From: Planctomyces sp. SH-PL62
GTDB taxonomy: Bacteria; Planctomycetota; Planctomycetia; Planctomycetales; Planctomycetaceae
DNA length: 32,637 nucleotides
Reading direction: 5' to 3'
NCBI GenBank assembly: GCA_945905295.1
Contig: CAMDPX010000063.1
Location: 1 to 32,637, forward strand
Within the stretch, counting starts at the first letter, position 1. Each line of letters begins with the position of its first letter. Of the stretch, positions 211 to 23,758 are shown piece by piece. The notes under the pieces are model-generated. The model did not search any database. It was not told where the DNA came from and saw nothing but the letters and a program-made list of their open reading frames with translations. The position numbers and the translations under genes are program-made.

Positions 211-3200
211 ATGACGAACTCAACGAATTCGATTCCCGCATCATTGATTCAACAACTCGTCTCGCGGCGCATCGTCCCGTTCGTTGGTTCCGGAGTCAGC
301 TTAGCCGTGAAGCGCGACTTGTTTCCCACGTGGGGTAAGTTGCTGGCGACACTGGCCGACCGGCTCCAGCACGAGACGAAAGAGGACGCTGCCGAGATCG
401 TGCGGCGGTTCGTCAAGAAAGGGCAGCTCAACAAAGCGGCCGACGAAGCGTTCGACGAACTCGGCTTGGCTCTCTTTCGCGACTCCATGCAAAAGACGTT
501 TGCCGTGGATCAACCGGCCGACGCCAATCTGGCGCTGCCGGCGGCGTTGTGGTCGCTGCGGCCGAAGCTGGTCGTGACCACCAACTACGACCGCGTGCTC
601 CAGTGGTCCAACTCGGCGGCTCGCACAGCGACGAATACTCAGCAGGCGAACCTCGCCGATTTGTTTGGCCGTTCTGAACCAGACAAGCCGCTCATCTGGC
701 ACTTGCACGGACGCATCGACGATCCCGATAGCTTGATCCTCGCGCCGCGGCAATACGATCGGCTGTATCGCGAAGCGGGTGACGACAAACATCCCTTCGC
801 CGCCGCGCGGCTGCAATTGCGGACGCTGATCGGCAACCATCCGCTGCTGTTCGTCGGCTTCGGCTTGCAGGACGAGTACGTGATGGACGCGCTGGCCACG
901 GTGCTGGAGATTTTCGGCGGCAACCTGCGTCCCAGCTACGCGCTGCTCAAGACCGGCGATGAGCGGGCGCGGACGCTGTGGGACAAACACAAGATTTACG
1001 TCATCGAGTACTCGGACCACGGCGAACCGCTGGTCGCGTTGGTCGCAGAGATGGCTCGGCAAATGAACGCCGCGCCGGCCGATTCGCAGAACTTTGCCGC
1101 TGGTCCGCCGGTGATTCCGCCGGCCTACATCGAGTGGCTGACCGAGCAATGTGCCGACATCACGCCGTTCGGCATGGCACCGACGCAGGGGAAGTCGGTT
1201 TGCTTGCAGCAGGTTTACGTTCCGCCGCTGACCAGCCGCCGCTTTGACGACGAACAACAGGCCGAAGCGATCGCGGGAAACGTCGGCGGCAAGACACGCA
1301 AACGCGGTCAGACCAAGGAGCCGGTCCCTGGTGCAGACGATGACGTGGAGACGTCGGCCAAGCCGCAACTGCTGTTGAAACTGTTGGGTGAGCGGTCGCT
1401 GTATGTGGCGGGTGATCCAGGGACGGGCAAGAGTACGTTCTGTCGTTGGGTGGCGTGGTTGGCGGCGACGGGCGAAGTCCCGGCGTTTGAAGTGACGGCC
1501 GGTGACGAATACCAAGAGCGACTGCCCGATACTCTGCGTGGCCGGTTGCCGGTGTTGGTGCGGCTGCGTGAATTTCGCGAGTTCCTGCCGACGCAGCCCG
1601 GTCGCCGTTTGCTGACGGCCGACCAGCTTCAAGCGGCGTTGCAGCGCTGGTTGGATCAGGCTCGGCCGGGAGGATTGTGTTGGAGCGATGTCGCACCGCA
1701 TCTGACGAGCGGCTCGCTGCTGCTGATTTTGGATGGTGTCGATGAGTTGCCGCTGACCGAAGGGGAGGGGACGACCGCCTGGTCGCCGCGCGAGTCGCTG
1801 CTGACCGGCGTGATCGCTGCCGCGACGGCCTGGCTGAAGCACAACAATCGGGTGTTGATCACCAGTCGGCCGTATGGACTGACGCCCGACCAAGTCCGGC
1901 AACTGGAGCGTGTCGGTTTGGCCGAAGCTCGACTGGACCCGCTGTCTGATTCGCTGCAAGACCTGTTGGCTGCGCGATGGTTTGTCGCGTTGCCGAAGTC
2001 GTCGGTCGATGGCCGCGAAGTCGCTGCCGGGATGTTGGATCAAGTGCGGCGGCTGGCGGGTGATGTGAAGTTGCTGGTCAGCAATCCGTTGTTGTTGACG
2101 GCGGTCTGCATCATCTACGGCGAGGGAAAGCAACTGCCGCAGGACAAGCACAACTTGTATGACCGCATCGTCAACACGGCGTTGCACAGCCGGTATCTCC
2201 GCGGGCCGAACGTGATCGCTCCGGTGCGCGCGCGACTGGCGGCAGTCGCGTTGGGGATGCACACCGGCGAGCCGCATAAGCCGGCGCGGCAGTCCCCCGT
2301 GGCGGAAGTCAGCTACGAGGAACTCAATCAAATTCTGGGAGCCTACATCGGAGCCACGCCGGAGACCGAATCGGGCTTTCGGCGTCCGGTCGATGCGCGG
2401 GAGGATTTGTTATCGCACAGCGGGTTGCTGTCGCAGCGTGAAGCGGATCGAGCCAGCTTCTATCACCTGTCGTTTCAAGAGTTCCTCGCGGCGGAGCGGC
2501 TGGTGCTGTTGAATCCCAACGAGGACAAGTTGCGGGAAGTGTTTCGCCAGCGCGCGGCGCTGTCCGGCTGGCGGCCGACGCTGTCGTTTCTGTTTGGCAG
2601 CCGAGTCGCTCAACCCGGCTGGCGGGCCGGCGTCGATCTCCTGGAAAAACTGCTGGAGGTGATCGACACGCAGAACGTCGCCGGATCGCTTGGTCTGGCG
2701 CTGTCAGCGGTGGATGCGTTCGACATCTTGCTGAGCCGCGATTTGAAACTGCAAGAGCCGCTGCTGGCTCGGTTCCGCGAGGTCTGTCTGGCGGCCATCG
2801 CACAGTCGGTCGAGCTGAAGTCGCGCGTTGAGTTGGCGCGAATGCTGGGCCGCATCGGCGATCCGCGCGTGGTGGACGACTTGAGCAATCCAGCGGCCTG
2901 GGTGACGGTGAACGCGGGGCCGTACTTCTACGGTGACGACAAGCAGCCGTTCGACATCGACCAGTCATTCGCCTTGTCGAAGTACCCGGTGACCAACGGC
3001 CAATTCCAACGCTTCGTGGATGCGGGGGGCTACGACGACCCCTCGCAGTGGAACGCAGACGGCTGGAAGTGGCGTGTGGAAAACAACATCGTCGAGCCAG
3101 GCTATTGGCGCGACCCAAAGTGGAACGGTCTGACGCAGCCGGTGATTGGCGTGTCGTGGTGGGAGGCGGACGCCTTTTGCCGTTGGGCCAAGTGCCGGCT

Positions 3201-3549
3201 GCCGACCGAGCGTGAGTGGGAAGCCGCCGCGCGCGGTCCGCAGGGGTGGGATTATCCGTGGGGCGATGAGTGGCGCGAGGGGCTGTGCAACTCGTCCGAA
3301 GCGGGCCTGGAGGTGACCACGCCGGTGGGGATCTTCCCGCGATCGTCGGCCGTCTGCGGCGCGGAGGAGATGGCGGGCAACGTCTGGGAATGGTGCGATG
3401 ATTGGTACGATCGGCAGAAGCATTCAGGCCGCGTTTGGCGTGGCGGCTCGTGGAACTTCAACCCGCGCCGTTGCCGGTCCGCGTTCCGCAACGGCATCCA
3501 ACCCGACTTTCGCTACCGGGTCTGTGGTTTTCGTGCGGCGAGAACTTAA
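211..3549 (+). CDS. SIR2-NACHT NTPase with C-terminal FGE/C-type-lectin domain (DGR-type target)
   Basis: A 1112-residue conflict-type (STAND) protein. Residues about 10-280 resemble the SIR2-like family: FVGSG near 24-28, TTNYD at 123-127, and WHLHG at 163-167 with the likely catalytic His. Such domains hydrolyse NAD in several antiphage systems. A NACHT NTPase follows, with P-loop GDPGTGKS at 401-408, Walker B LLLILDGVDEL near 503-513, and the FYHLSFQEFLAAE end motif near 750. Residues about 898-1110 form a formylglycine-generating-enzyme-like domain (PVTNGQF, RLPTEREWEAAARG, MAGNVWEWCDDWY, RVWRGGSW). The segment that holds the catalytic cysteines in true FGE enzymes has no matching Cys pair, so I infer a ligand-binding C-type-lectin fold. 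Its last 35 codons match a DGR variable region in position and pattern. Inferred role: sensor by FGE domain, switch by NACHT, NAD-depleting effector by SIR2. The start is the first ATG of the frame. Confidence 0.9.
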   Translation: MTNSTNSIPASLIQQLVSRRIVPFVGSGVSLAVKRDLFPTWGKLLATLADRLQHETKEDAAEIVRRFVKKGQLNKAADEAFDELGLALFRDSMQKTFAVDQPADANLALPAALWSLRPKLVVTTNYDRVLQWSNSAARTATNTQQANLADLFGRSEPDKPLIWHLHGRIDDPDSLILAPRQYDRLYREAGDDKHPFAAARLQLRTLIGNHPLLFVGFGLQDEYVMDALATVLEIFGGNLRPSYALLKTGDERARTLWDKHKIYVIEYSDHGEPLVALVAEMARQMNAAPADSQNFAAGPPVIPPAYIEWLTEQCADITPFGMAPTQGKSVCLQQVYVPPLTSRRFDDEQQAEAIAGNVGGKTRKRGQTKEPVPGADDDVETSAKPQLLLKLLGERSLYVAGDPGTGKSTFCRWVAWLAATGEVPAFEVTAGDEYQERLPDTLRGRLPVLVRLREFREFLPTQPGRRLLTADQLQAALQRWLDQARPGGLCWSDVAPHLTSGSLLLILDGVDELPLTEGEGTTAWSPRESLLTGVIAAATAWLKHNNRVLITSRPYGLTPDQVRQLERVGLAEARLDPLSDSLQDLLAARWFVALPKSSVDGREVAAGMLDQVRRLAGDVKLLVSNPLLLTAVCIIYGEGKQLPQDKHNLYDRIVNTALHSRYLRGPNVIAPVRARLAAVALGMHTGEPHKPARQSPVAEVSYEELNQILGAYIGATPETESGFRRPVDAREDLLSHSGLLSQREADRASFYHLSFQEFLAAERLVLLNPNEDKLREVFRQRAALSGWRPTLSFLFGSRVAQPGWRAGVDLLEKLLEVIDTQNVAGSLGLALSAVDAFDILLSRDLKLQEPLLARFREVCLAAIAQSVELKSRVELARMLGRIGDPRVVDDLSNPAAWVTVNAGPYFYGDDKQPFDIDQSFALSKYPVTNGQFQRFVDAGGYDDPSQWNADGWKWRVENNIVEPGYWRDPKWNGLTQPVIGVSWWEADAFCRWAKCRLPTEREWEAAARGPQGWDYPWGDEWREGLCNSSEAGLEVTTPVGIFPRSSAVCGAEEMAGNVWEWCDDWYDRQKHSGRVWRGGSWNFNPRRCRSAFRNGIQPDFRYRVCGFRAART
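3430..3534 (+). other. Variable-region-like (VR) 3' end of the FGE domain
   Basis: These are codons 1074-1108 of the SIR2-NACHT gene, from RVWRGGSW to GFR. They align without gaps to the template-like segment at 3790-3894. Many of the asparagine (AAC/AAT) codons of the template are replaced here: N to F, R, I, F, R and V. This is where DGR variable regions lie in C-type-lectin-fold targets. By hand alignment about 15 of 24 template adenines differ, but so do about 29 of 81 other bases. The pair is therefore related but not a recent A-specific copy. Confidence 0.55.
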
Positions 3550-3642: not shown

Positions 3643-3740
3643 GGGGTCAGGCACCGCAAAATTCAAAAATGGCGGAACGACGCGTCGTGTCCTTGCAGGA
3701 CTTCACTCCGCCAATTTTGAATTTTGCGGTGCCTGACCCC
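3643..3740. repeat. Palindromic element with GGGGTCAGG termini, 34-bp arms
   Basis: Arms 3643-3676 and 3707-3740 are reverse complements with a single mismatch, around a 30-base loop. The ends GGGGTCAGG and CCTGACCCC recur in the element at 15186-15311 and in the half site near 25067-25075, so this is a REP/MITE-like family. It lies between the variable-region-like end of the SIR2-NACHT gene and the template-like repeat. Confidence 0.85.
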
Positions 3741-3789: not shown

Positions 3790-3894
3790 CGTGTGCTGCG
3801 TGGGGGCTCCTGGAACAACAATGCCAGGAACGTCCGCGCCGCCATCCGCAACAGGAACACGCCCGACAACCGTGACAACAATGTCGGGTTTCGG
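3790..3894 (+). repeat. Template-repeat-like (TR) segment of a DGR
   Basis: Read in frame this encodes [11 protein letters not shown] and then ARN, RNRNT and DNRDNN before GFR: the end of an FGE-type domain in which exposed positions are asparagine, mostly AAC. Enrichment of AAC/AAT codons is the hallmark of DGR template repeats, because adenines are the mutagenised bases. It aligns gap-free with codons 1074-1108 of the upstream gene. It has no gene of its own around it; an open frame runs through it (3724-3999) without a recognisable N-terminal domain. A terminator follows at 4067-4116. Confidence 0.65.
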
Positions 3895-3949
3895 GTGTTG
3901 TGTTGCGTCAGCACTCTGCGGGGGCGGTTCGCTGTCCCATTGCCAGAAT

Positions 3950-4118: not shown

Positions 4119-4126
4119 TTTGTTGA

Positions 4127-4236
4127 ACCCCGCCGAGCTTGCCTCGGTGGAAAAGGGCCTTTGCACTACGACCGAACTCCCTTGAAGCATGCGTAGTGCA
4201 AAGGCCCAAAAACCACCGAGGCAAGCTCGGTGGGGT
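4127..4236. repeat. Long two-part inverted repeat between TR and reverse transcriptase
   Basis: Two nested stems: 4127-4150 pairs with 4213-4236, and 4155-4170 pairs with 4192-4207, separated by A-rich bulges. It lies 11 bases beyond the stop codon of the minus-strand reverse transcriptase. It could end that transcript, or be another palindromic element like those elsewhere in the window. Confidence 0.75.
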
Positions 4237-4247
4237 TTGTGTCAACG

Positions 4248-4850
4248 TCACCCGCGTGCGGTATCAACCTCGGAAAGAGGCGGCGGTGATTCGCGAACAA
4301 ACGCGAACTCATGGAAGAGCCGCTCGCGCAGCCGATAGCTGTCGGCGTGGCGCACATGGCCGATCCAACTGATGATCCGCTCGCGGACCTGCGCGGCCGA
4401 CAGCTCGCCCGCCTGGAAGGCGTCGCACATCCTTCGCAAGCGCCGCCGCATGCGCTGAATGTTTTCGCGCGCGACCAGGCGGTAATCCGGAAACTGACGG
4501 AATCCCAAGAAGCGGCTGCCGTCCTGCGTGCGGGCGATCAATTGTTTGAGGATCTCCTGATCGACCGAGGGGAAGAATTTCCGCACATCGCACTGCAACA
4601 CGTACCGGTGGCGACGAGCAAAGTCCCGAAAGCGGTCGAGCGCCGCGTGAGTCCCCTTCCCACGGCGGCAGGCATAACTGTCGAACACAAACGTCGGCTC
4701 GAAGACCCGCTCCAGGACACCGCACAGCGCGTGATGCACGACACGATCCCGTATCGGAGCCGCGCTGATCAGCCGCCGCTTCGGCTCGAAAATTTCAAAC
4801 GTGCGGTAGGCTCCGGACGCATAGGTTCCGGCCAGCAACTCGTCCTGCAA
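4248..4850 (-). pseudogene. DGR-type reverse transcriptase, internally deleted and N-terminally truncated
   Basis: The 200-residue frame resembles the reverse transcriptases of diversity-generating retroelements. Visible landmarks are [48 protein letters not shown] and the motif-A segment [12 protein letters not shown] (Asp near residue 88). Near residue 110 the sequence jumps from LKQLIART to [11 protein letters not shown], which belongs after the palm in full-length enzymes. The segment holding the GNLTSQ-type motif and the YxDD catalytic box is missing, roughly 100 or more residues by memory of the family. Matching residues ([14 protein letters not shown]) continue upstream of the TTG at 4850 and end at the TGA of the giant gene (4896-4898), so the N-terminus is cut too. 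No accessory avd gene is visible. An active enzyme is very unlikely. Confidence 0.8.
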
Positions 4851-4895
4851 CCGGCACGTCTGCCGTTCGCGGTCGACCGTGTGCGAAACGTCGAT

Positions 4896-7800
4896 TCATT
4901 TTGGCTGCGCGCCGAGACCGGTGAGAATCTTTCGTTCCCGTTCGCTTTTCAGCCCGTTGACGTTCATCCCTTCGCATCTCAACTGCAGTTGATACACCTG
5001 CATTACGCGGTTTTCCTTTTCGGGACGCAGATCAGATCGAACAATCTTTCGATCGATGCCGCCTGAGAGAAGCGATTGGTCTTCGAGAAATGCCATCGCG
5101 GTGACGGCCCCCTCGTGTGCTCGAAAGGCGGTAATTTCCTCCCATGTGACTTCGTTCGCGGTCAGACAGCACTTCAGAACTTTCAGGTTCCCCTGGTGGT
5201 CGCCACAGGCAACCAAGAATTGATCACCGCCAAGATCGCAAACCGCAAGCGAAGTGGGCACCATGCTTGGACAAATTGTAGCTTCCACGTCGCTGCCGAC
5301 CCGATCCAAGACGATTCCCCTTTTGGGATCGGCCGAGACAATCACTTTATCGCGATAGCAGTCACAGATCGAAGACGCTCCAAGAGAATGACACACCAAG
5401 TTTGTCAAGACTTCGGAGTCAAGTTTGAACATTGACACACAGTATTGCCCGCTCTTGTCGCTCTCGACGACAAGCACCAGATCTTTTTTGATTATTATTC
5501 GCTGGATCTCAGGCCGTGTTCTGAATTCCGCTACCCGCTCGTGACTGCCAGCAATGTAATCCGCAAACACCAACCGATTGTTGTAATGCAGGCAAAGATC
5601 GAAACCTGGATGTGAAGAAATCTCAAAGTGTGCCGCTGCGCCGTCACCAATAGCGTAAGTGACGTGCGAACTCGACTCGTGATTCATCGCGAGAGACCAT
5701 TTCCGGACGCGACCGTCGTTGTATGAAGCGATGAAATGATCCGCACCACCGGGCACTGAAAGCGAACGGACTTCCGAAGTCTCCTCAAGACGAACGCCGG
5801 TCAGATCAACGTTTGAGAAGTTGGCATCACTGAAGTTCGCATTGTCGAGGATTGCGTTTTTCAGCGACGTTCCGCAAAAACTCTTTCGAGATAGGTCAGC
5901 ACCGGCGAGATTTACGCCGTCGAGCGTCATGGCGTCCCAGTCGTGCTCTCGAAGTTCTCCCTCCGACTTGAAAAGAACGTTGACCGCGTTCCTACCGAGT
6001 CGAGTTCGATCGTTGTCCGTCAAACTTGTGGCGCGAGTCGACAAACGACTGTGTTCCGCCATCGACCGCAGGGCCGGATGATACGCTGACGAGTTGTTGT
6101 CACGTCGAATAAGCAACGCCACGAATTGACAAATCTCATTGTTCAAATCAGTGCTGGCAAGGATCTTCATCGCTTTGGATGCATTCTCCCTAATCACAGA
6201 GACGATATATCGGGCGACAAAATATTCCCGAAGGGACCGGTGGCAGAAATCAACTGGCCAGTCATCATCCGAGTGTGTTTCTTCCCCGCTGTGAATACGT
6301 CGCAGCAATGAACGTACCCCAACACGCGCTGTCGCGTCATCTTCTAAGGACTCGTCCGAATTCGCGCGATCCCAGAGCATTTGCGCATATTTGGCGTTAG
6401 TTGCCTTATCTGCGATTCGTTTCAGACAGGTAAATTCCCGTTGGCTGCGATGAATAGCCATCGCCACCTCTTCCAGAATCGTCATTAGTCGATTGACCTG
6501 TTCTTCGCGTCCAACACGAGCGATGACGGGGTCAAGCAGTTCGCTTTTGCGCTTCAGTGATTTCTTGATGTAGCTCTCGTACAAGGCGATCGCGCTCGTG
6601 CAGTCTGCCTCCGGATCCCAAAGCGTTTCGGAAACCATTTGAAGGAACAATGGTTTAGTCGCTAGGCCAATCGGATCGTGCATCATTCGGAGCGACTCAA
6701 GCCGCACTCGGCGTTCGGGCGTCGTTGCCTCCAAGGCCAATCGTTCGGTCACAGTCGCTCGATCCAAATTGCAAAGCGTCAACACCTGAGGGTCACCGAG
6801 TAAACTAAGCAAGTGTTCCCTCTCGGGAAGCATATGGAAAAACGGCGTCCGACAGGTGAGAAGAATCTTGTTGTTTTGAAACTCATGCGTGCAACAGTCT
6901 CGTAAACGATCGATCGCGTTCTTCACACTCTTGGGATCAAGCGAGGTTGTCATTTCGTCGAGCCCATCGAGAATGACAAATACTGAGTGTTCTTCAATGA
7001 GGTGAAGCCAGCCGCCGATATCCGCGCCAAATTCCTCGATGCGGCGCCGGAGGAATTCCCGACCGCCCGCGATATTAGGCCGCGAGAAATCACGCAATGA
7101 GCACCGTAGGGGCAGCCAGCATGCTTTGGGATTGAGGCGAAACCGCTGAAGAAGGTGAGACGTCAGAAGGTACGTGGCGACGGTCTTGCCGTCGCCAAAG
7201 TCACCCAGCAGAACCATCGTTCGTTTCTGTGACTCAAGCCATGTGGCGACGGTCTCGCCGAGCGTTCCGGGTATGGGAGCCCCCGTTTCATCAATAGCGC
7301 GCGGCTCGACGTGATTCTCGCGTAACTTTGCGAGGATATCCTCAGATTCGTCGCTGAAAGTTTTCCAGTGGCGAGGAAGTCGAACATAATCCTTCCAGCC
7401 GGGCGGCAACCGAAGTGGCGGTTCAAGCTTTCGTCGCCAATGATTGATAATGCCTATCTGTGTGTCGTTCGACCACTTCGAGGGGTGGTCACCGTCAATG
7501 TGTCTGCCCTCAAACCACAAGTCGAAGAGGACCGGAACGAGGCCGAAGAGCTGATCCACTCCGGTTCCGCGAGTCCAGATGTGAATTTCGAACGAGTATC
7601 TTTCCCGGTCTCGCCAGTCGTCCAACACCGTCTTGAGCGTATTTGCTGATTCAGCGCGCGGGGCAATGAGGATCCAGTGATCTGGCTTGGACTGCATTGC
7701 ATCAAGTTCAGCGATCTTTCCCGCGACAATGTCTACGGTGATGGCCGATTCTTGGCTCTTGCATTCGACGAAGGAACGGATATCCCGGCCAGCACGACGG

Positions 7801-10568
7801 TCATAATAGGTGAGCTTGACGTCGAATCCGAGTTGTGAACCGCGTAACTGCTGAGACAACTCCTCTAGGATCCTTTCCTGATTCGCATCGTCGATTTCAA
7901 AGAGCATTTTCAGCAATTGAAGCGTGGCTTGCTCAAGCGCCTCGCCCTTTGCTTCAGACGTCATTTCAGTGACTTGTGCTCTTACCTGTGCCGCAGCGTC
8001 AGGGATTGAATGGCTATCTGAAACCTCCGCGTTTTCCCAATGGATGTGAGTATTGGCAGCAGGTTTCGGCAACTCAATGTCGTGGTGTCCTAACACTGTC
8101 CAAATCCTGCGTCTCCATTCAATTTGCGCACTGTGGGCTTTCCATTGTGCCTTTTGCGGCACGTCGTCGAGATTAAAGTCAAACACGAATCCGACCTCAG
8201 AATTCAATAATTCAGAATCTTCCGGAAGTGCGGAGATGATTTTCCTGAATCGCTGTCGTGCCGTCTCAATGTCACCCTTCGCCAATAATTCGCGGGCATC
8301 ACGCAGTTCGTCCAACACCGGCTGGACGAAGTCGGCTTCTTTGCTGAGCTTACCCAACAGCGCGTCATAACGTGGCTCGTGCGGCTGATAGCCGACAGAC
8401 TTCAAGTCGTGGAAGACAGCCGCCAATAGTCCCGCGCAGTTTGCTTCTGCGGCCAGATCGGACGACGCGGTGACGGTGTCCAGCACCCGCGACACGAAGC
8501 CGTCGACCTTAGCCTCACCTTGCTTGTGCAATCCCACGGCCAGCAGCAGGATTACCTCACGCCACTCGGCTAAGTACAAATTCTGAACCGACCCGCTTAG
8601 GATCGCCCACTGTTCCGATTCGGGACGATTGGCAATCGCTCGCGACGCCAGGAACTCTTGAAATAGCACATGCGAGAATTCGATGTTTTTGCGGACCGCC
8701 ACGACAATGCCACTGTCGAGTTCCTCTGCGGATAAAAACTCTTCGGCCGTCGCGACGCTTTCGCTCATCGGCAGCCCTGCCCCGAAATGCGGAGCCAATT
8801 GCTCTGCGGCCCACCGATTTGATACCTGCGCCTGGCGGCCGTCCGGATGGTTTTGCATCGCCAGCGCCAGTTCTTGCAACAACATCACGGTCCGCTCCGG
8901 CTTCTCGCGGCCGGGACGATCCTCGCGCGAACGGGACAGCCAGGTGATGACCGAGTCATACAACTCGGCCCGCTGTTCGGGCATCCGTCGCTCGTTCCAA
9001 TGAACCACCGCCAGCGCGGTGAGCATCACCGGATTGCGGGCCACGCGACGAATCTCCGGTCGCGCATGCAACGATTCGAGCAACTCGCGGCAATGCTCGC
9101 GCGCTTGAGGCGTGTCGCCGTCGTACAACTTCCGGCACCAGTGACTCAGGAACGTATCGACCGCGTCATCGGACAGCGGCGCGATCTCGACGTGGACGAA
9201 CTGCGGCAGCACCGTGTTCCCCGTGTATGCCGGCGGCCGGCTCGTCACCACGAATCGGCAACCGTCGAACACTCGCGAAATGTTCTCGGCCAACAGCGAT
9301 AAGGCATCCCGCTGCACGCGATCCGCCGCTTCGTCCAAGCCATCGAGCAACACCGTGCAGCGTCCCGCTTCCAACTGCCGCTGAAAAAAGGCTTGGTCCA
9401 ATCCGGTTCCGTTTTCGCGACTCGTGGCCGCCAGACAATGAGCCAACCAAGCCGGCGATGCCGCCTCGGCCGGCGCATCCGGCTTGCCACGATGAGCGGC
9501 GATGTGATTGGCCAGCGTCGCGCAGCGCAAGAAGATCGGAAACGTCTTGTCGCTGATCCCCAACCGCGCCTGCGCCGCCTGCGGCACGGTTCCCAACTCA
9601 GTGACACACAGCGCGGCGGCGACGCGCCGCAGAAACGTCGTCTTCCCCGCGCCCGGATCACCAATCACGACCAACCGCCGCTCGGACAGCGCCGCCTGCA
9701 ACGGCACCTCGCCCGACTCCCGCATCATCCCTTCGAGGTGCATTGCGGACTTCTCGTCCGCCTGGCCCGATTTCTTGCCACGCGGTTTTCCTTTCGACGC
9801 TTCCTCCGGATCACGCACCCCCATGCGGCTCTTGAGCGCGATATACAAGTCCTCGATCGGAAACCGATGCGCGTTGCCGGTCCGCACCGCCAACCCCCGG
9901 ATATTGATGAACGAAGTCGTCTCCAGCAGTTCGCGCAGATACTTGTCGGGCGTGACGACTTCGCCGGGAGCCACGGCGGGTGCTCCAATTTCCGGATGCC
10001 GGAGACGCCAGTCATTCAAAGCCAGACCGATCTCGACCTGCAAATCCTTGGCGGTCTCCACCGTCTTGCGAATGCCACGTCCGCCCAGCCACGACTTGAA
10101 AGCATCGAGTCCGTCGAGAGCTTCCGTGATGTCGGCCGAAAGTTCCGGAGTGAGCTGGCGTTCGACACCCGCCTTGGTAAAGCGATACTCCTCTTTCTGC
10201 TCGGCGGGCCATTCGCCTTTCTGGCCGATGAGGAACCCCAAGACTTCGCGTTCGTCGTCCGCCGCTTGCTGGCACTCCAGCCATGTAATGCTCTTGCGAG
10301 GCTTGTTCTTCTTTGACTGATCCTTGGGTCTCCAGCCGTAACGATGCGCGACCAGCACGATCAGCACATCGGTCCGCGACACGCGGTCGAGACAAACCTT
10401 GAGCGGCGGGTCAGCACCATTGGCGGGAAAGTTGTCGCACAACACCGGAAACATTCCGGCGGCAATCACCGCCTCGCGAGCGGCCGACCGATACGGTTCC
10501 AGATCCTCGATCGTGGAAGAAATGAAAACATGCGGAGTCGTCGGACGCTGGGCGGCAGATTTCGACAT
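4896..10568 (-). CDS. Giant DUF4062-NACHT-nuclease-like-NACHT-pentapeptide-WD40 conflict protein
   Basis: About 1890 residues from the ATG at 10568; an in-frame ATG at 10580 is possible, and upstream codons to 10697 would overlap the rhomboid gene. Order from that start: DUF4062 domain (HVFISSTIEDLEPYR, residues about 12-190); first NACHT with P-loop GDPGAGKT (303-310), Walker B LLDGLDEA (407-414) and FSHVLFQEFLASR; a linker; a PD-(D/E)XK-like segment with D929 and E935-C-K937; second NACHT with GDFGDGKT (1122-1129), FVILDGLDEM (1197-1206) and FCHRSLREYF; pentapeptide repeats (about 1547-1597, DLSRKSFCGTSLKNAILDNA); then a WD40-like propeller with one clear blade (AHEGAVTAMAF). Nuclease plus NACHT resembles single-protein antiphage bNACHT/Avs-like systems; I infer a defence or signalling role. 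Two complete NTPase cores in one chain are unusual. The DNA looks less GC-rich from about 4.9 to 8.3 kb than from 8.4 to 10.5 kb, so a fusion is plausible. Confidence 0.88.
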   Translation of the reverse strand: MSKSAAQRPTTPHVFISSTIEDLEPYRSAAREAVIAAGMFPVLCDNFPANGADPPLKVCLDRVSRTDVLIVLVAHRYGWRPKDQSKKNKPRKSITWLECQQAADDEREVLGFLIGQKGEWPAEQKEEYRFTKAGVERQLTPELSADITEALDGLDAFKSWLGGRGIRKTVETAKDLQVEIGLALNDWRLRHPEIGAPAVAPGEVVTPDKYLRELLETTSFINIRGLAVRTGNAHRFPIEDLYIALKSRMGVRDPEEASKGKPRGKKSGQADEKSAMHLEGMMRESGEVPLQAALSERRLVVIGDPGAGKTTFLRRVAAALCVTELGTVPQAAQARLGISDKTFPIFLRCATLANHIAAHRGKPDAPAEAASPAWLAHCLAATSRENGTGLDQAFFQRQLEAGRCTVLLDGLDEAADRVQRDALSLLAENISRVFDGCRFVVTSRPPAYTGNTVLPQFVHVEIAPLSDDAVDTFLSHWCRKLYDGDTPQAREHCRELLESLHARPEIRRVARNPVMLTALAVVHWNERRMPEQRAELYDSVITWLSRSREDRPGREKPERTVMLLQELALAMQNHPDGRQAQVSNRWAAEQLAPHFGAGLPMSESVATAEEFLSAEELDSGIVVAVRKNIEFSHVLFQEFLASRAIANRPESEQWAILSGSVQNLYLAEWREVILLLAVGLHKQGEAKVDGFVSRVLDTVTASSDLAAEANCAGLLAAVFHDLKSVGYQPHEPRYDALLGKLSKEADFVQPVLDELRDARELLAKGDIETARQRFRKIISALPEDSELLNSEVGFVFDFNLDDVPQKAQWKAHSAQIEWRRRIWTVLGHHDIELPKPAANTHIHWENAEVSDSHSIPDAAAQVRAQVTEMTSEAKGEALEQATLQLLKMLFEIDDANQERILEELSQQLRGSQLGFDVKLTYYDRRAGRDIRSFVECKSQESAITVDIVAGKIAELDAMQSKPDHWILIAPRAESANTLKTVLDDWRDRERYSFEIHIWTRGTGVDQLFGLVPVLFDLWFEGRHIDGDHPSKWSNDTQIGIINHWRRKLEPPLRLPPGWKDYVRLPRHWKTFSDESEDILAKLRENHVEPRAIDETGAPIPGTLGETVATWLESQKRTMVLLGDFGDGKTVATYLLTSHLLQRFRLNPKACWLPLRCSLRDFSRPNIAGGREFLRRRIEEFGADIGGWLHLIEEHSVFVILDGLDEMTTSLDPKSVKNAIDRLRDCCTHEFQNNKILLTCRTPFFHMLPEREHLLSLLGDPQVLTLCNLDRATVTERLALEATTPERRVRLESLRMMHDPIGLATKPLFLQMVSETLWDPEADCTSAIALYESYIKKSLKRKSELLDPVIARVGREEQVNRLMTILEEVAMAIHRSQREFTCLKRIADKATNAKYAQMLWDRANSDESLEDDATARVGVRSLLRRIHSGEETHSDDDWPVDFCHRSLREYFVARYIVSVIRENASKAMKILASTDLNNEICQFVALLIRRDNNSSAYHPALRSMAEHSRLSTRATSLTDNDRTRLGRNAVNVLFKSEGELREHDWDAMTLDGVNLAGADLSRKSFCGTSLKNAILDNANFSDANFSNVDLTGVRLEETSEVRSLSVPGGADHFIASYNDGRVRKWSLAMNHESSSHVTYAIGDGAAAHFEISSHPGFDLCLHYNNRLVFADYIAGSHERVAEFRTRPEIQRIIIKKDLVLVVESDKSGQYCVSMFKLDSEVLTNLVCHSLGASSICDCYRDKVIVSADPKRGIVLDRVGSDVEATICPSMVPTSLAVCDLGGDQFLVACGDHQGNLKVLKCCLTANEVTWEEITAFRAHEGAVTAMAFLEDQSLLSGGIDRKIVRSDLRPEKENRVMQVYQLQLRCEGMNVNGLKSERERKILTGLGAQPK

Positions 10569-10656
10569 GATGGCTTTCATCGGATCGGGGCCAGACGCTC
10601 CCGTGGTCCGGCGGGCGAATACCATATCATCCGCATCCGAACAACGCCCCGGATCG

Positions 10657-11991
10657 TCACCAACTCTTGCCGTCCAACTCAAACGTGTCGTCGTCAATCA
10701 TCCCCTCGGCCTTTTGCCGAATCTGTACGACCTGGTTGCGGAGGGAATCCGGCAGATCCTCCAGGTCGACTTGGTCCAAGAGCTTGAGCGCTGCGCGGGG
10801 CCGCGTCTGCACGTCGCACCACAGAGTCGCCAATTTGATGCGCGCGGCATTGGCTCGCGCGGGGAATCGTTTCACGAATTCTTCCAGCAGCGGGACTGCC
10901 TCGTTCCAAACCTTGAGCTTGAACAGGCCATCCGCGAGCGCCTGCAAGTCGTCCGCCTCCAACGGCCAGTGATCGACGATGCGCAGCCGCTTGCGGTACT
11001 CGACGAGTGCGGCCTGTGGCTTTCCGGTGCGCAGCAACTCACGCATCCGGTCCAAGACAGTCAGCGTCGCGGGAGACATTGCCGATTCGGACATCGTTCT
11101 CGGCGAGGCTGCCGTTGGTTGTTCATCGGCAGCGAGCGGCGGAGTCTTCGTTTTCGGCGGGCGGCGTTTCGTCTGGGCGGAGAGATAAATCGACGGCCGG
11201 AAGGCCGCTTTCTTTTTCTTGGGCTTCGCTGGAGCGGACGACGTCTCCGCGCCGCGCAGATCGGGCGAATGGGTGACCAGAATGTTTTCGTTCCAGTGTT
11301 TCAGGTCCGTGGGTCGGCCGTAGGTTCCCTTCCAGAGCGCGATCAGATCCCAATTCTCGCAGTCCACCCAGTGCAACCTCAGCAGTGCGAGGCCGATTCC
11401 AAATCCCCAGAACGCACCGACCAAATGCCCCATCGCGCTCCCCATCGAAAAGGCATTCCACCACGCCGACAGCACCTGCAACGCGACGTACCAAATACCA
11501 AAGGTCAGAATCGTGACCTCCACCGAGAGGAGCCGGTATCCGATGAAGACCAGCACGTCCATTTCGTTCTTCGGTGCCCACACCACGCAGATCGCCAACA
11601 GGCCATAAACGATCAACGATGCGCCGGCACCTCCCGAACTCGGCGGAAGTTCGCTCCCCAGCATGACCGCCTGAATGAACAGCCCGCCCAGAACGCCGAT
11701 CGACAAGAACACCAACAGAAAACGCCACCAGCCGAGCTTGCCTTCGACCACGATGCCGAAGCCCCACAGGAAAATCATGTTCCCGATCAGGTGCAGCCAG
11801 CCGAAGTGCAGAAAGTTGAACGCAACCCATTCCAACGGATGCAGGCCGTGACCGAACTGCAACAGCCAGCCGGTTTGGTGCTCACCCTGCCCGGTCAGAA
11901 AGAAGGTGATGCAGTTCACGGCGACCAGCACCAGCGTCATCCACGGCCAGTGATAAATCGGCGCGTCGGTGTTGATGGGGATGATGACCAT
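10657..11991 (-). CDS. Rhomboid-family intramembrane serine protease with C-terminal soluble extension
   Basis: A 444-residue protein. The first 210 residues form the rhomboid core: six or so hydrophobic segments, HLIGN near residues 67-71, the nucleophile Ser125 in GAGASLIVYG, and His189 in AMGHLVGAFWGFGIG. These enzymes cleave transmembrane segments of other membrane proteins. The serine motif GASLIVYG is slightly unlike the usual GASGAIFG, but serine and histidine are both present. Residues from about 220 carry a charged Lys/Pro-rich linker and a TPR-like helical region (AALVEYRKRL, AVPLLEEFVKRFP), probably for cytoplasmic partner binding. The stop lies 88 bases before the start of the giant conflict gene on the same strand. 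Confidence 0.87.
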   Translation of the reverse strand: MVIIPINTDAPIYHWPWMTLVLVAVNCITFFLTGQGEHQTGWLLQFGHGLHPLEWVAFNFLHFGWLHLIGNMIFLWGFGIVVEGKLGWWRFLLVFLSIGVLGGLFIQAVMLGSELPPSSGGAGASLIVYGLLAICVVWAPKNEMDVLVFIGYRLLSVEVTILTFGIWYVALQVLSAWWNAFSMGSAMGHLVGAFWGFGIGLALLRLHWVDCENWDLIALWKGTYGRPTDLKHWNENILVTHSPDLRGAETSSAPAKPKKKKAAFRPSIYLSAQTKRRPPKTKTPPLAADEQPTAASPRTMSESAMSPATLTVLDRMRELLRTGKPQAALVEYRKRLRIVDHWPLEADDLQALADGLFKLKVWNEAVPLLEEFVKRFPARANAARIKLATLWCDVQTRPRAALKLLDQVDLEDLPDSLRNQVVQIRQKAEGMIDDDTFELDGKSW

Positions 11992-21119: not shown

Positions 21120-21736
21120 GGGGTCTCCGCTGGCTGAATGTTGCAGAGCACAGCCGATGCCGGCGTTTCCAGTGCCGAGACAACTCAGAACTGGCGTATG
21201 GCGACGGACCACCGATGGGAGTGGCGCGGCATGGTTGGGTTCAATGCTTTCGCATCACAACGCGATCGGAGGATTCGATCAAGTCCGCCAGACCGATTGG
21301 AATCGGCAGGGGAGTACGACGCGCTTTGTGCGGGCGACGGTTTCACACGACGCCCCCATCGACCTCGTGTCGATGGAGCGAAAGATGGCGAGCTAAGTCA
21401 GCCGCACCTCGATTTGTTGTCAGACCCCATCCGCCTCGTGCGGATGGTGAATCAGATTCTTCGGCATTCCTCTCCCAATGATCTCTTTCACCATCCGCAC
21501 GAGGCGGATGGGGTCTCAAAAACGACCTGGCAGACGACGTCGCTAGCGCACCATCGGTTGCTCCATCCAGGCAAGCTGGATGGGGGCGGGACAATTCGCA
21601 AACTGCGTCGTGCGCCCGATTGCCAGTCGGGCAGTTGCTCGTTTGCTACCTACACCGATGACGGTATGGTGTTGCTGGCGTGCGACGGAGTTCCCGTGCT
21701 GCGGACACCTCTAAAAGAATTTCCTCGGAGAGTTTC
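21120..21736. other. Gene-free stretch with several palindromes
   Basis: No convincing gene lies here. Besides the main inverted repeat at 21422-21516 there are smaller stems, such as CCATCGACCTCGTGTCGATGG near 21355 and CCATCCAGGCAAGCTGGATGG near 21563. They all share a CATC...GATGG design with a different spacer, so they look like one repeat class. Confidence 0.6.
21422..21516. repeat. Perfect inverted repeat, 29-bp arms
   Basis: Positions 21422-21450 and 21488-21516 are perfect reverse complements separated by 37 bases. Each arm itself contains the smaller palindrome CATCCGCCTCGTGCGGATG. Confidence 0.9.
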
Positions 21737-23758
21737 ATGAGCGAGAACCTCGAATCCAAGCCAAACCCGGACGATAGTTTTTGGAAGCAAGTGGAACTGT
21801 GTGGAATCTCTCGCCCGCCGGAAGACTTTGAATCGAACGCTCGGAAGTTGTTGAAAGAGGGGGCTCCACTGCTGGCCTATGATGTGGCCAGAGTCGGGCT
21901 GATCCAGTATCCGGGCGACGTCAAGCTGCGCCGAAAAATGGGCTTAGCCTTGGCTCGCAGCGGAGCCACGATTGAGGCGTATCAACTGGCTCGGACACTT
22001 TATGAGGAGGGGCAGCGGGACATCGAGACCATTGGGCTGCTGGCGCGAACGCTCAAAGACCTGTGGCAGCAGAGCAATCATCAGGAACACAAGACTCACT
22101 GGTTGGCCGAAGCGGCGAAGCAATATGAGGACGCCTATGTCCGCGCCAACGAGTCGCAGGAGAGCGACACGAAAGATTCGAGTTATTGGCCCGGGATCAA
22201 TGCGGCGACATTAGCGTTGGCTCGTGGCGATCTCGACAGGGCGACCACGCTGGCCGCGAGTGTTCTCGAACAGTGCGAAGCTCTCGCGAAGCCCGATTCC
22301 AAAGACGAGAACGACTACTGGATCCTGGCGACGATCGGTGAGGCCAACCTGATCCTGGGTGATCTCGAGGAAGCGGGCGAAAAGTATGGGCAAGCCGCGG
22401 AGTTGGCTTACAAGGCTCGCAGCTTTGGCGACTTGTGCTCCACCTATCGCAATGTGCGGATCTTGCTCGATCTGCTGAAGCTCAGCGAGAAGGACCGTCA
22501 GCGCATCCAGTCCAACTTTCGCCGGCCACGGGTCGTCATCTTTGCCGGACACATGATCGATCACGACCGGCAAGTGCCGCGGTTTCCGGCGGAACTCGAA
22601 GACAAGGTTCGCGAGGCTTTGAAGCGAAAGCTCAAGGAGTACGGGGGTGTGGTCGCTTATAGCTCGGCCGCGTGTGGCTCGGACATTTTGTTTCTGGAGA
22701 CCGTGAAGGAACTGGGAGGGACGACCAAGGTTGTGTTGCCCTACGAGCGAAACGCATTTGCCGATGACAGCGTCGCCTTCGCGGGCGAGCAGTGGCTGGA
22801 GCGATTCCACAAGGTGCTTGAGGACGCCGACGAGGTGATTACCGCCTCGCCCTATCAGAAACTGAGTTGGGGCAGCGTGACCTATGACTACGCCAACCTC
22901 GTGCTGACCGGCTTGGCGACGGTGTATGCCCAGCATCTGGAGTGTGACCTGCAACCGCTGTGTATCTGGAACGAATTACCCGGCGACGGCGAAGGGGGGA
23001 CGGCCTTCATCGTTCAACGTTGGCAACAACGATTGGGTGCCGATGCGGTCGATATCCTCAACCCGTGCCGGTTTGGTCCCGCGACGAAGAAAGGATCGGC
23101 ATCCGGCCGGAGTACCGCCGCCGCGCGATCCTCGATGACTCCCATTCAGCCGGTGCAACGAGTGCCGCAGAAATCGAAGTTTCTCGACCAGATGGTGGTC
23201 AAGGCGTTGCTGTTCGCCGACATGAAGGGCTTCAGTGAATTGACCGAAGAGCAAATGCCCGCGTTCATCGAAACCTTCTTCGGGCTGGTGGCGCGGTTGA
23301 TTCGGCGTTCGGACAATGGCCCGGTGACGACCGAGGATCGTGGCGATGGTGTGTTTTGTGTCTTCAACACGTCACGCCAAGCGGCCCGGTTCGCTTTGGA
23401 TTTGAACGAGTGCTTGGAAGCGGTGAATTCTCAGAAAGAATTGAAACTGAAACAGGAACTCAAGGTCCGCATTGGTTTGCACGCCGGGCCGGTTCATGAG
23501 TTTCTACATCCCATCACCGGAAAGTTGGCTTATACAGGGACGCACGTCTCACGGGCGGCGCGCATCGAGCCGGTGGCTCCTCCGGGGCACGTCTGGGCGA
23601 GCCGGGAGTTCGCGGCGATGGCCAGTATCGAACAACAAGCCGTCCCGAAGAAAACTCCGGACTTCGACTGTGTCTATGTGGGACTCACGGTCTGGCACAA
23701 AGACTACGGCGTCGAGCCGACCTTTCATGTGCGGCGACACCTCAGTTCCGGAGGGTAA
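21737..23758 (+). CDS. TPR-like / SLOG-like / class III nucleotidyl cyclase protein
   Basis: A 673-residue cytoplasmic protein from the ATG at 21737, with CGGAGAG about 5 bases upstream. Residues about 30-250 are helical TPR-like repeats. Residues about 262-430 look like a Rossmann-type SLOG/LOG-like nucleotide-binding domain (VVIFAGHMID, YSSAACGSDILFLE, VLPYERNAF). Residues about 488-670 are a class III nucleotidyl cyclase: metal-binding Asp495 in LLFADMKGFS and Asp537 in EDRGDGVFCVF, KVRIGLHAGPV, and VSRAARIEPVAPPG. In the last motif the usual transition-state Asn is Ser, while the Arg is kept, so activity may be altered. It should make cAMP or another cyclic nucleotide; the SLOG-like part may sense or process a nucleotide. 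Similar domain mixes occur in predicted nucleotide-signalling conflict systems. No effector gene is adjacent. Confidence 0.85.
   Translation: MSENLESKPNPDDSFWKQVELCGISRPPEDFESNARKLLKEGAPLLAYDVARVGLIQYPGDVKLRRKMGLALARSGATIEAYQLARTLYEEGQRDIETIGLLARTLKDLWQQSNHQEHKTHWLAEAAKQYEDAYVRANESQESDTKDSSYWPGINAATLALARGDLDRATTLAASVLEQCEALAKPDSKDENDYWILATIGEANLILGDLEEAGEKYGQAAELAYKARSFGDLCSTYRNVRILLDLLKLSEKDRQRIQSNFRRPRVVIFAGHMIDHDRQVPRFPAELEDKVREALKRKLKEYGGVVAYSSAACGSDILFLETVKELGGTTKVVLPYERNAFADDSVAFAGEQWLERFHKVLEDADEVITASPYQKLSWGSVTYDYANLVLTGLATVYAQHLECDLQPLCIWNELPGDGEGGTAFIVQRWQQRLGADAVDILNPCRFGPATKKGSASGRSTAAARSSMTPIQPVQRVPQKSKFLDQMVVKALLFADMKGFSELTEEQMPAFIETFFGLVARLIRRSDNGPVTTEDRGDGVFCVFNTSRQAARFALDLNECLEAVNSQKELKLKQELKVRIGLHAGPVHEFLHPITGKLAYTGTHVSRAARIEPVAPPGHVWASREFAAMASIEQQAVPKKTPDFDCVYVGLTVWHKDYGVEPTFHVRRHLSSGG

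Follow-up and report, generated by a model that had tools for sequence, protein, structure and literature searches.

A bacterial NLR-like protein is, as far as the accessible parts of the literature describe it, an effector-NTPase-sensor chain built around a single switch (PMC12169576; PMC10907252). The locus studied here raises the question of how one reading frame came to hold two complete NTPase cores, and of what such a chain may do. The window, i.e., the whole stretch of DNA analysed, is 32,637 bases long and comprises the entire contig G000:C63 of a draft genome of 8.6 Mb in 476 contigs. The frame of interest (P0001) spans 4896-10697 on the minus strand; it opens with a TTG at 10697, and an ATG lies further in at 10568. 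From this ATG the gene (4896..10568, minus strand, as for all its parts below) runs over 1890 codons plus a stop without any internal stop. The uninterrupted frame of about 1890 codons with two NTPase cores reported in the initial annotation thus stands, and there is neither a stop nor a frameshift at residues 800-880. That annotation also regarded one NTPase per chain as normal, which is the usual form rather than a formal rule, and P0001 deviates from it with two.

At the N-terminus, a DUF4062 domain (residues 14-102, 10263..10529; Pfam PF13271, E 1.7e-18) is followed by a first NACHT (NACHT1, residues 297-479, 9132..9680) with the Walker A and B motifs GDPGAGKT and LLDGLDEA. A second NACHT (NACHT2, approximately residues 1116-1242, 6843..7223) carries GDFGDGKT and ILDGLDEM. 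Pfam assigns NACHT to the whole protein at E 7.2e-22 in two stretches, and both places lie in the same frame and exceed the PF05729 cut-off individually. Both Walker sets are intact, as claimed earlier, NACHT1 by sequence reading and NACHT2 by alignment, where the Walker Lys and the Asp/Glu are kept in all nine aligned modules (see below). Among 12 genomes of the genus, with 23 NACHT places, P0001 is the sole frame with two. Pentapeptide repeats occupy residues 1549-1586 (5811..5924; PF00805, E 1.2e-11), followed by a WD40-like region (approximately residues 1597-1860, 4989..5780) and a C-terminal tail (4899..4988) that the module alignment shows to be common to the family. Of the sensor end proposed initially, the pentapeptide repeats are secure; the WD40 assignment is weaker than stated, since Pfam finds a single repeat (residues 1810-1842) at 23.3 bits against a cut-off of 27. 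The WD40-like end is nevertheless kept in the module's relatives and aligns across the family. By layout, residues 860-1890 fit the order of N-terminal effector, NTPase and C-terminal sensor, with the effector and sensor roles putative. No FGE domain was found in P0001 among the Pfam matches listed (25 of 29 families), and PADLOC gave no convincing model for the protein, with no Avs model among its matches for P0001 (limit 0.01) or for its two parts (limit 1). Rfam gave no match at gathering scores.

The two halves of the chain have different relatives. For residues 1-740, tblastn recovered relatives at 78% (L002 in G007), 62% (L003 in G045), 52% (L004 in G057) and 46% (L005 in G025) identity, each of them with an FGE-sulfatase domain at its end (E 3e-33 to 1.4e-54); L002 is split over two frames. 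L004 (199-4044, plus strand) is a NACHT-FGE relative that, by eye, has a nuclease-like N-terminus instead of DUF4062. The alignment of P0001 with L003 is strong up to approximately residue 740 and then frays, and in this splice zone (residues 740-753, 8310..8351), where homology to the FGE-ending relatives is lost, the GC content of third codon positions (GC3) drops from 0.74 to 0.58. The most probable change point lies at residue 753, with a log-likelihood gain of 27.6 as compared to at most 8.6 in 300 shuffles. Alignment with L086 places the start of the acquired module in a linker at residues 740-840 (8049..8351). The acquired module (residues 741-1890, 3.45 kb) is the stretch of lowest GC content of its size on the contig (0.527, median 0.598), and beyond it, in the remnant of a reverse transcriptase (RT), the GC content of 0.634 is back to native composition. 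Judged from these comparisons, P0001 is a splice, in which a 3.45-kb module replaced the FGE/C-lectin end of what was probably a DUF4062-NACHT-FGE-type receptor; the module lies where, going by the relatives, FGE is to be expected. Fusion by loss of a stop codon between two neighbouring genes was also considered and rejected, because the sister loci have FGE at this place and lack a separate module gene.

The RT remnant belongs to the diversity-generating retroelement (DGR) type and lies directly 3' of the P0001 stop (4251..4895, minus strand; PHROG RT, E 1.6e-61). Its 215 residues match residues 40-164 (71% identity) and 267-351 (55%) of an intact relative of 356 aa that adjoins a kinase-FGE gene (L139), so that the first 39 residues and the central YVDD part are missing. 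On the other side is a SIR2-NACHT-FGE gene (211..3549, plus strand; Pfam), convergent with P0001, with a variable-repeat-like end at approximately 3431-3542. An Asn-rich, template-repeat-like copy of its 3' end is located at 3791..3902 (plus strand); the two differ at 15 of the 24 A positions and at 33 of the other 88, a pattern that hints at a former template repeat but goes no further. What appears from its sequence to be another DGR-like site of this genome is G000:C319 (positions 1-2140, L085), with an RT end, a template-like copy 73% identical to that of the window and, by eye, a TIR-like FGE gene. In the simplest history, the incoming module would have taken the place of the FGE end together with the adjoining space and the first part of the RT gene.

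Gene order in the window is SIR2-NACHT-FGE, RT remnant, P0001, rhomboid, rpsD and PPC. The corresponding locus of a sister species (L077, G002:C147) begins with a SIR2-NACHT-FGE gene in two frames, a Y1 transposase, an FGE end and a DUF4062 start, and continues with the rhomboid gene, an adenylate-kinase-like gene (by eye), rpsD and the PPC protein; for the adenylate-kinase-like gene, the window frames listed contain no counterpart. Identities with the window are 91% for rhomboid, 99% for rpsD and 95% for PPC, whereas the SIR2-NACHT part is only 43% identical, so that the flank is conserved and the adjoining defence-type genes are not. The DUF4062 gene of the sister species is decayed: residues 1-116 and 552-705 and the FGE end were matched, while approximately residues 117-551 are missing. 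In G007 a convergent pair of DUF4062-NACHT-FGE and SIR2-NACHT-FGE genes, the latter 59% identical to that of the window, lies amid other genes. Judged by this contrast in identity, and by DUF4062 genes that differ in kind, the locus looks like a defence-gene hotspot. Several further observations were made here. Two strong inverted repeats lie between genes (3643-3740, 34 nt, 97%; 4126-4237, 25 nt, 96%) and may be REP-type elements; the sister locus has its Y1 transposase at this place. In G007 the convergent NACHT-FGE genes (L076, 6875-10894 and 5303-7762) break at the same FGE motif and overlap antisense, which looks like loss or mis-assembly of the sequence that separated their similar 3' ends. 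Elsewhere in the window, 21680-23758 (plus strand) encodes a TPR-S protein with a guanylate-cyclase-like domain, both of which are domains of bacterial conflict systems, and the DUF1501, PSD1/PSCyt and 'planctomycete cytochrome' genes on the contig point to a planctomycete. A perfect 32-nt inverted repeat at its very end (1-86) is possibly an assembly edge.

Does the acquired half occur outside this genome? A profile built from three sequences (residues 845-1600) gave 16 loci in a scan of genome contigs, four of which (L086, L087, L088 and L089) match a whole-module profile along its full length. Such a match is expected, since that profile was built from the window and these four. In total, nine full-length chains were compared, i.e., P0001, L086-L089, L118, L119, L120 and L122; kept apart from them were L121 (G905), in which the module is broken by a TGA, the partial matches in G786 and G904, and loci L090-L101. 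Over its length, the module of the window is 25-31% identical to those of the eight relatives, and the C-terminal tail is common to all. What precedes the module differs strongly. In Paenibacillus sp. SYP-B3998 (L086, 1840 aa) it is HSDR_N plus SWI2/SNF2; in a Fibrimonadaceae MAG (L089, 2006 aa) TIR, NB-ARC and TPRs; in the Paractinoplanes family (L118, 2077 aa) PNP-EAD2-NB-ARC. Paractinoplanes tereljensis holds two copies, one (L087, 1375 aa) with an N-terminus that is caspase-like by eye, although Pfam finds no caspase in it, and one (L122, 1405 aa) with TIR. An Oscillospiraceae MAG (L088, 2038-12174, plus strand) has a single frame of 3378 aa in which an NTPase of NACHT/nSTAND3-like type, WD40 repeats, PPDK and a Roc GTPase come before the module. 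L119 and L120 (approximately 1250 aa) carry a short N-terminus and are little more than the module, which agrees with the earlier view of the second half as a full protein, here one of receptor type. A Pup-like match (PF05639) was noticed at residues 8-37 of L119 (E 3.7e-12) and, sub-threshold, at residues 246-270 of L087. The first NTPase of L088 falls just under the Pfam cut-offs, and the NACHT domains of L086, L119 and L120 also score below cut-off.

A second STAND-type NTPase is thus present upstream of the module in four of the nine chains (P0001, L088, L089 and L118), and homologues do not always occur as two separate genes, since the last three are tandem-NTPase single frames. Going by these architectures, the module is attached to other, sometimes apparently complete, immune-type proteins in other phyla. 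It is rare wherever it was searched for with the whole-module profile: one of 104 genomes of the Paenibacillus family and one of 167 of the Fibrimonadaceae phylum gave a match, the starting genome included in both counts; seven of 250 did so in the Paractinoplanes family (including the starting genome, two partial matches and one broken module); and of the three genomes among 397 of the window's class, two hold partial matches, so that it is full-length in its own genome only. The fusion of DUF4062-NACHT with the module is known from one draft genome, and in the first scan of genome contigs the whole of P0001 had no relative. Used as a single query, the C-terminal half matched 9 of the 170 family genomes and 56 of the 392 from the phylum; nearly all these matches are short and fall within the pentapeptide or NACHT stretch, and only the own genome covers the whole half. 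Distant proteins of the phylum (L058-L069) have NACHT, partly with pentapeptide/WD40 regions, behind other N-terminal parts. No relatives of the C-terminal half were found in phages. Viral contigs gave one match, to residues 765-869 of the query (1151 residues); the protein concerned is rich in pentapeptides and has, by eye, an NTPase-like core. Plasmid matches are partial at 21-29% identity, apart from one pentapeptide match at 39.6%.

The segment between the NACHT domains (approximately residues 860-1020, 7509..7991) had been described as PD-(D/E)XK-like, and it also models as such a fold. AlphaFold2 on residues 840-1075 of the window aligned with six relatives (seven sequences) reached pLDDT 77 and pTM 0.73; with the window sequence alone (residues 845-1110) pLDDT was 39. 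In the PDB, Foldseek matches the model best to two restriction endonucleases, AspBHI (E 9.8e-4) and MspJI (3.1e-3), and next to the Cap4 nuclease (9.9e-3); only one match is below E 0.001, TM-scores are approximately 0.3 and unrelated folds occur lower in the list. VIA-align puts RPB5 subunits, which have a PD-(D/E)XK-like part, on top (Z up to 7.6), and then Avs4 (5.8), VC1899, Nt.BspD6I, MspJI, AspBHI, FokI, EcoO109I and Cap4, most of which are PD-(D/E)XK-fold proteins. Every Z score is below 8 and the PD-(D/E)XK nuclease-like fold is therefore supported by the modelling but not proved. At the level of sequence profiles, Pfam assigns no family to the window's nuclease segment alone, Mrr_cat matches L089 weakly and below its cut-off (E 0.042), and a profile (A5) that took in L091 and L092, whose contigs are by their length those of L058 and L061, matched nothing among the PDB sequences better than E 0.49. 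The catalytic motif proposed initially was D929/E935/K937. E935 and K937 hold, whereas D929 is kept in one of the nine aligned modules, the window's own, and was rejected as catalytic residue; the conserved Asp is D916. The motif D916 ... E935-C-K937 (7758..7823) co-occurs in six of the nine modules and is broken in the other three (L087, L118 and L122), and cleavage is, therefore, not a fixed property of the module.

How might such a chain work? By analogy with the bNACHT proteins (PMC12169576), the module alone would be a receptor, with the pentapeptide/WD40-like end as sensor, NACHT2 as switch and the nuclease-like domain as effector. The relatives carry effector-type domains or whole effector-STAND proteins in their N-terminal slot, and DUF4062-NACHT1, which occupies the same slot, is therefore tentatively placed downstream of the module and not as a gate before it; the contents of this slot, the sole source for the order of the two NTPases, provide hints in this direction. 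We consider P0001 best explained, at a probability of roughly 0.55, as a chimeric STAND immune-type receptor with C-terminal sensing, NACHT2 assembly, clustering of the nuclease and a second output from DUF4062-NACHT1. In such a scheme, the pentapeptide/WD40-like end would detect an infection cue, NACHT2 would bind ATP and assemble, and the clustered nuclease domains would cut nucleic acid. DUF4062-NACHT1, in the effector slot, would be concentrated by the same assembly and might act as a second output or as an amplifier. The cell might then kill itself, or the nucleic acid of the phage might be destroyed, with defence as the presumed purpose of P0001.

The initial annotation had suggested the opposite order, in which DUF4062-NACHT1 might be a gate that acts first, by sensing or licensing, and holds the nuclease-NACHT2 half under its control. 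The intact Walker A and B motifs of NACHT1 speak for this, since two switches in series would permit two-key control, but the N-terminal part lacks the FGE end of its relatives while the module has a C-terminal end of its own, and the N-terminal slot of the relatives is filled with HsdR-like, TIR or TIR-NB-ARC parts. We therefore regard a gate as unlikely. Neither does it seem probable, and rather less so than a gate, that P0001 is a bifunctional fusion with two independent outputs lacking ordered coupling. The halves do differ in history and composition and the N-terminal partners elsewhere are very diverse, yet complete STAND proteins have repeatedly been joined to this one module, and such recurrence suggests that being linked is of some benefit.

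Two further readings are more sceptical. The broken RT next to it, the sister gene in pieces and the occurrence in a single genome would fit a recent, non-functional fusion within a decaying defence locus. This we hold to be improbable in view of 1890 open codons, the retention of both Walker sets and of the nuclease motif, and chains of the same kind in other phyla. An assembly chimera of two different genes might be suspected in a draft genome of 476 contigs with an abrupt GC step at the junction. However, composition is native again at the far edge, in the RT remnant, the flanking genes are syntenic with those of the sister species, the module stops at its natural conserved tail and tandem chains recur elsewhere. 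The decayed, FGE-ending sister copy at the same locus, together with this recurrence, argues against a chimera, which is very improbable indeed. Returning to the chimeric receptor with C-terminal sensing, a wider reading, for which the odds are about even, is that a nuclease-NACHT-pentapeptide-propeller module of approximately 1150 residues is transferred across phyla as a 'receptor on top of a receptor', being fused in frame behind immune proteins that are already complete, whole STAND receptors among them. This would create two-stage immune switches, and here the module would have captured a receptor whose antigen-sensor end, of the retroelement type, it displaced.

Recurring two-switch chains, some of them combining different STAND clades, would mean that the parts exchanged include entire receptors as well as single domains. 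They would also offer a tractable system to study the order in which two nucleotide-driven assemblies act within one polypeptide. The window appears to record the swap of an FGE-type (DGR-type) sensor end for a different sensor, and the exchange can still be traced at both of its edges. What is already known comprises STAND receptors with a single NTPase, nuclease-NACHT proteins and STAND proteins of the DGR-FGE kind. Among the matches listed from the open-access literature, which covers no preprints and few subscription papers, there is no description of the module or of bacterial two-STAND chains; plant papers do mention 'two NB-ARC domains'.

The closest known layouts are those of the bNACHT proteins, with an N-terminal effector, a central NACHT and a C-terminal sensor (PMC12169576). 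In the available text of that study, bNACHT25 and bNACHT32 have an N-terminal PD-(D/E)XK DNase, one central NACHT module and an NCH1 helical C-terminal domain. Residues 860-1890 of P0001 resemble them in having a nuclease-like domain before NACHT and a putative C-terminal sensing part; unlike them, as described there, P0001 adds the upstream DUF4062-NACHT and a pentapeptide/WD40-like end. Among the Avs (AVAST) proteins, the Avs4 chain (PDB 8dgf) structurally matches the nuclease-like domain (126 residues aligned at the Z score given above); P0001 has no Avs profile match among those listed by PADLOC. In the accessible parts of Dore et al. (2024; PMC10907252), DGR-diversified STAND-CLec/FGE proteins are put forward as putative antigen sensors. 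The DUF4062-NACHT-FGE relatives, the SIR2-NACHT-FGE neighbour and the DGR-type RT remains nearby are all in keeping with this type, whereas P0001 itself carries a second receptor module in place of the FGE end, and the RT beside it is broken. A two-gene STAND operon with one active and one eroded gene, whose two modules are proposed to cooperate, is described in the text available to us of PMC8195603; both systems have two STAND modules, P0001 in one chain with both Walker sets intact. Also close are L089 and L118, in which, as in P0001, a STAND protein is followed by the same nuclease-like-NACHT-pentapeptide module, although their first NTPase is NB-ARC instead of NACHT and L118 has lost the nuclease motif.
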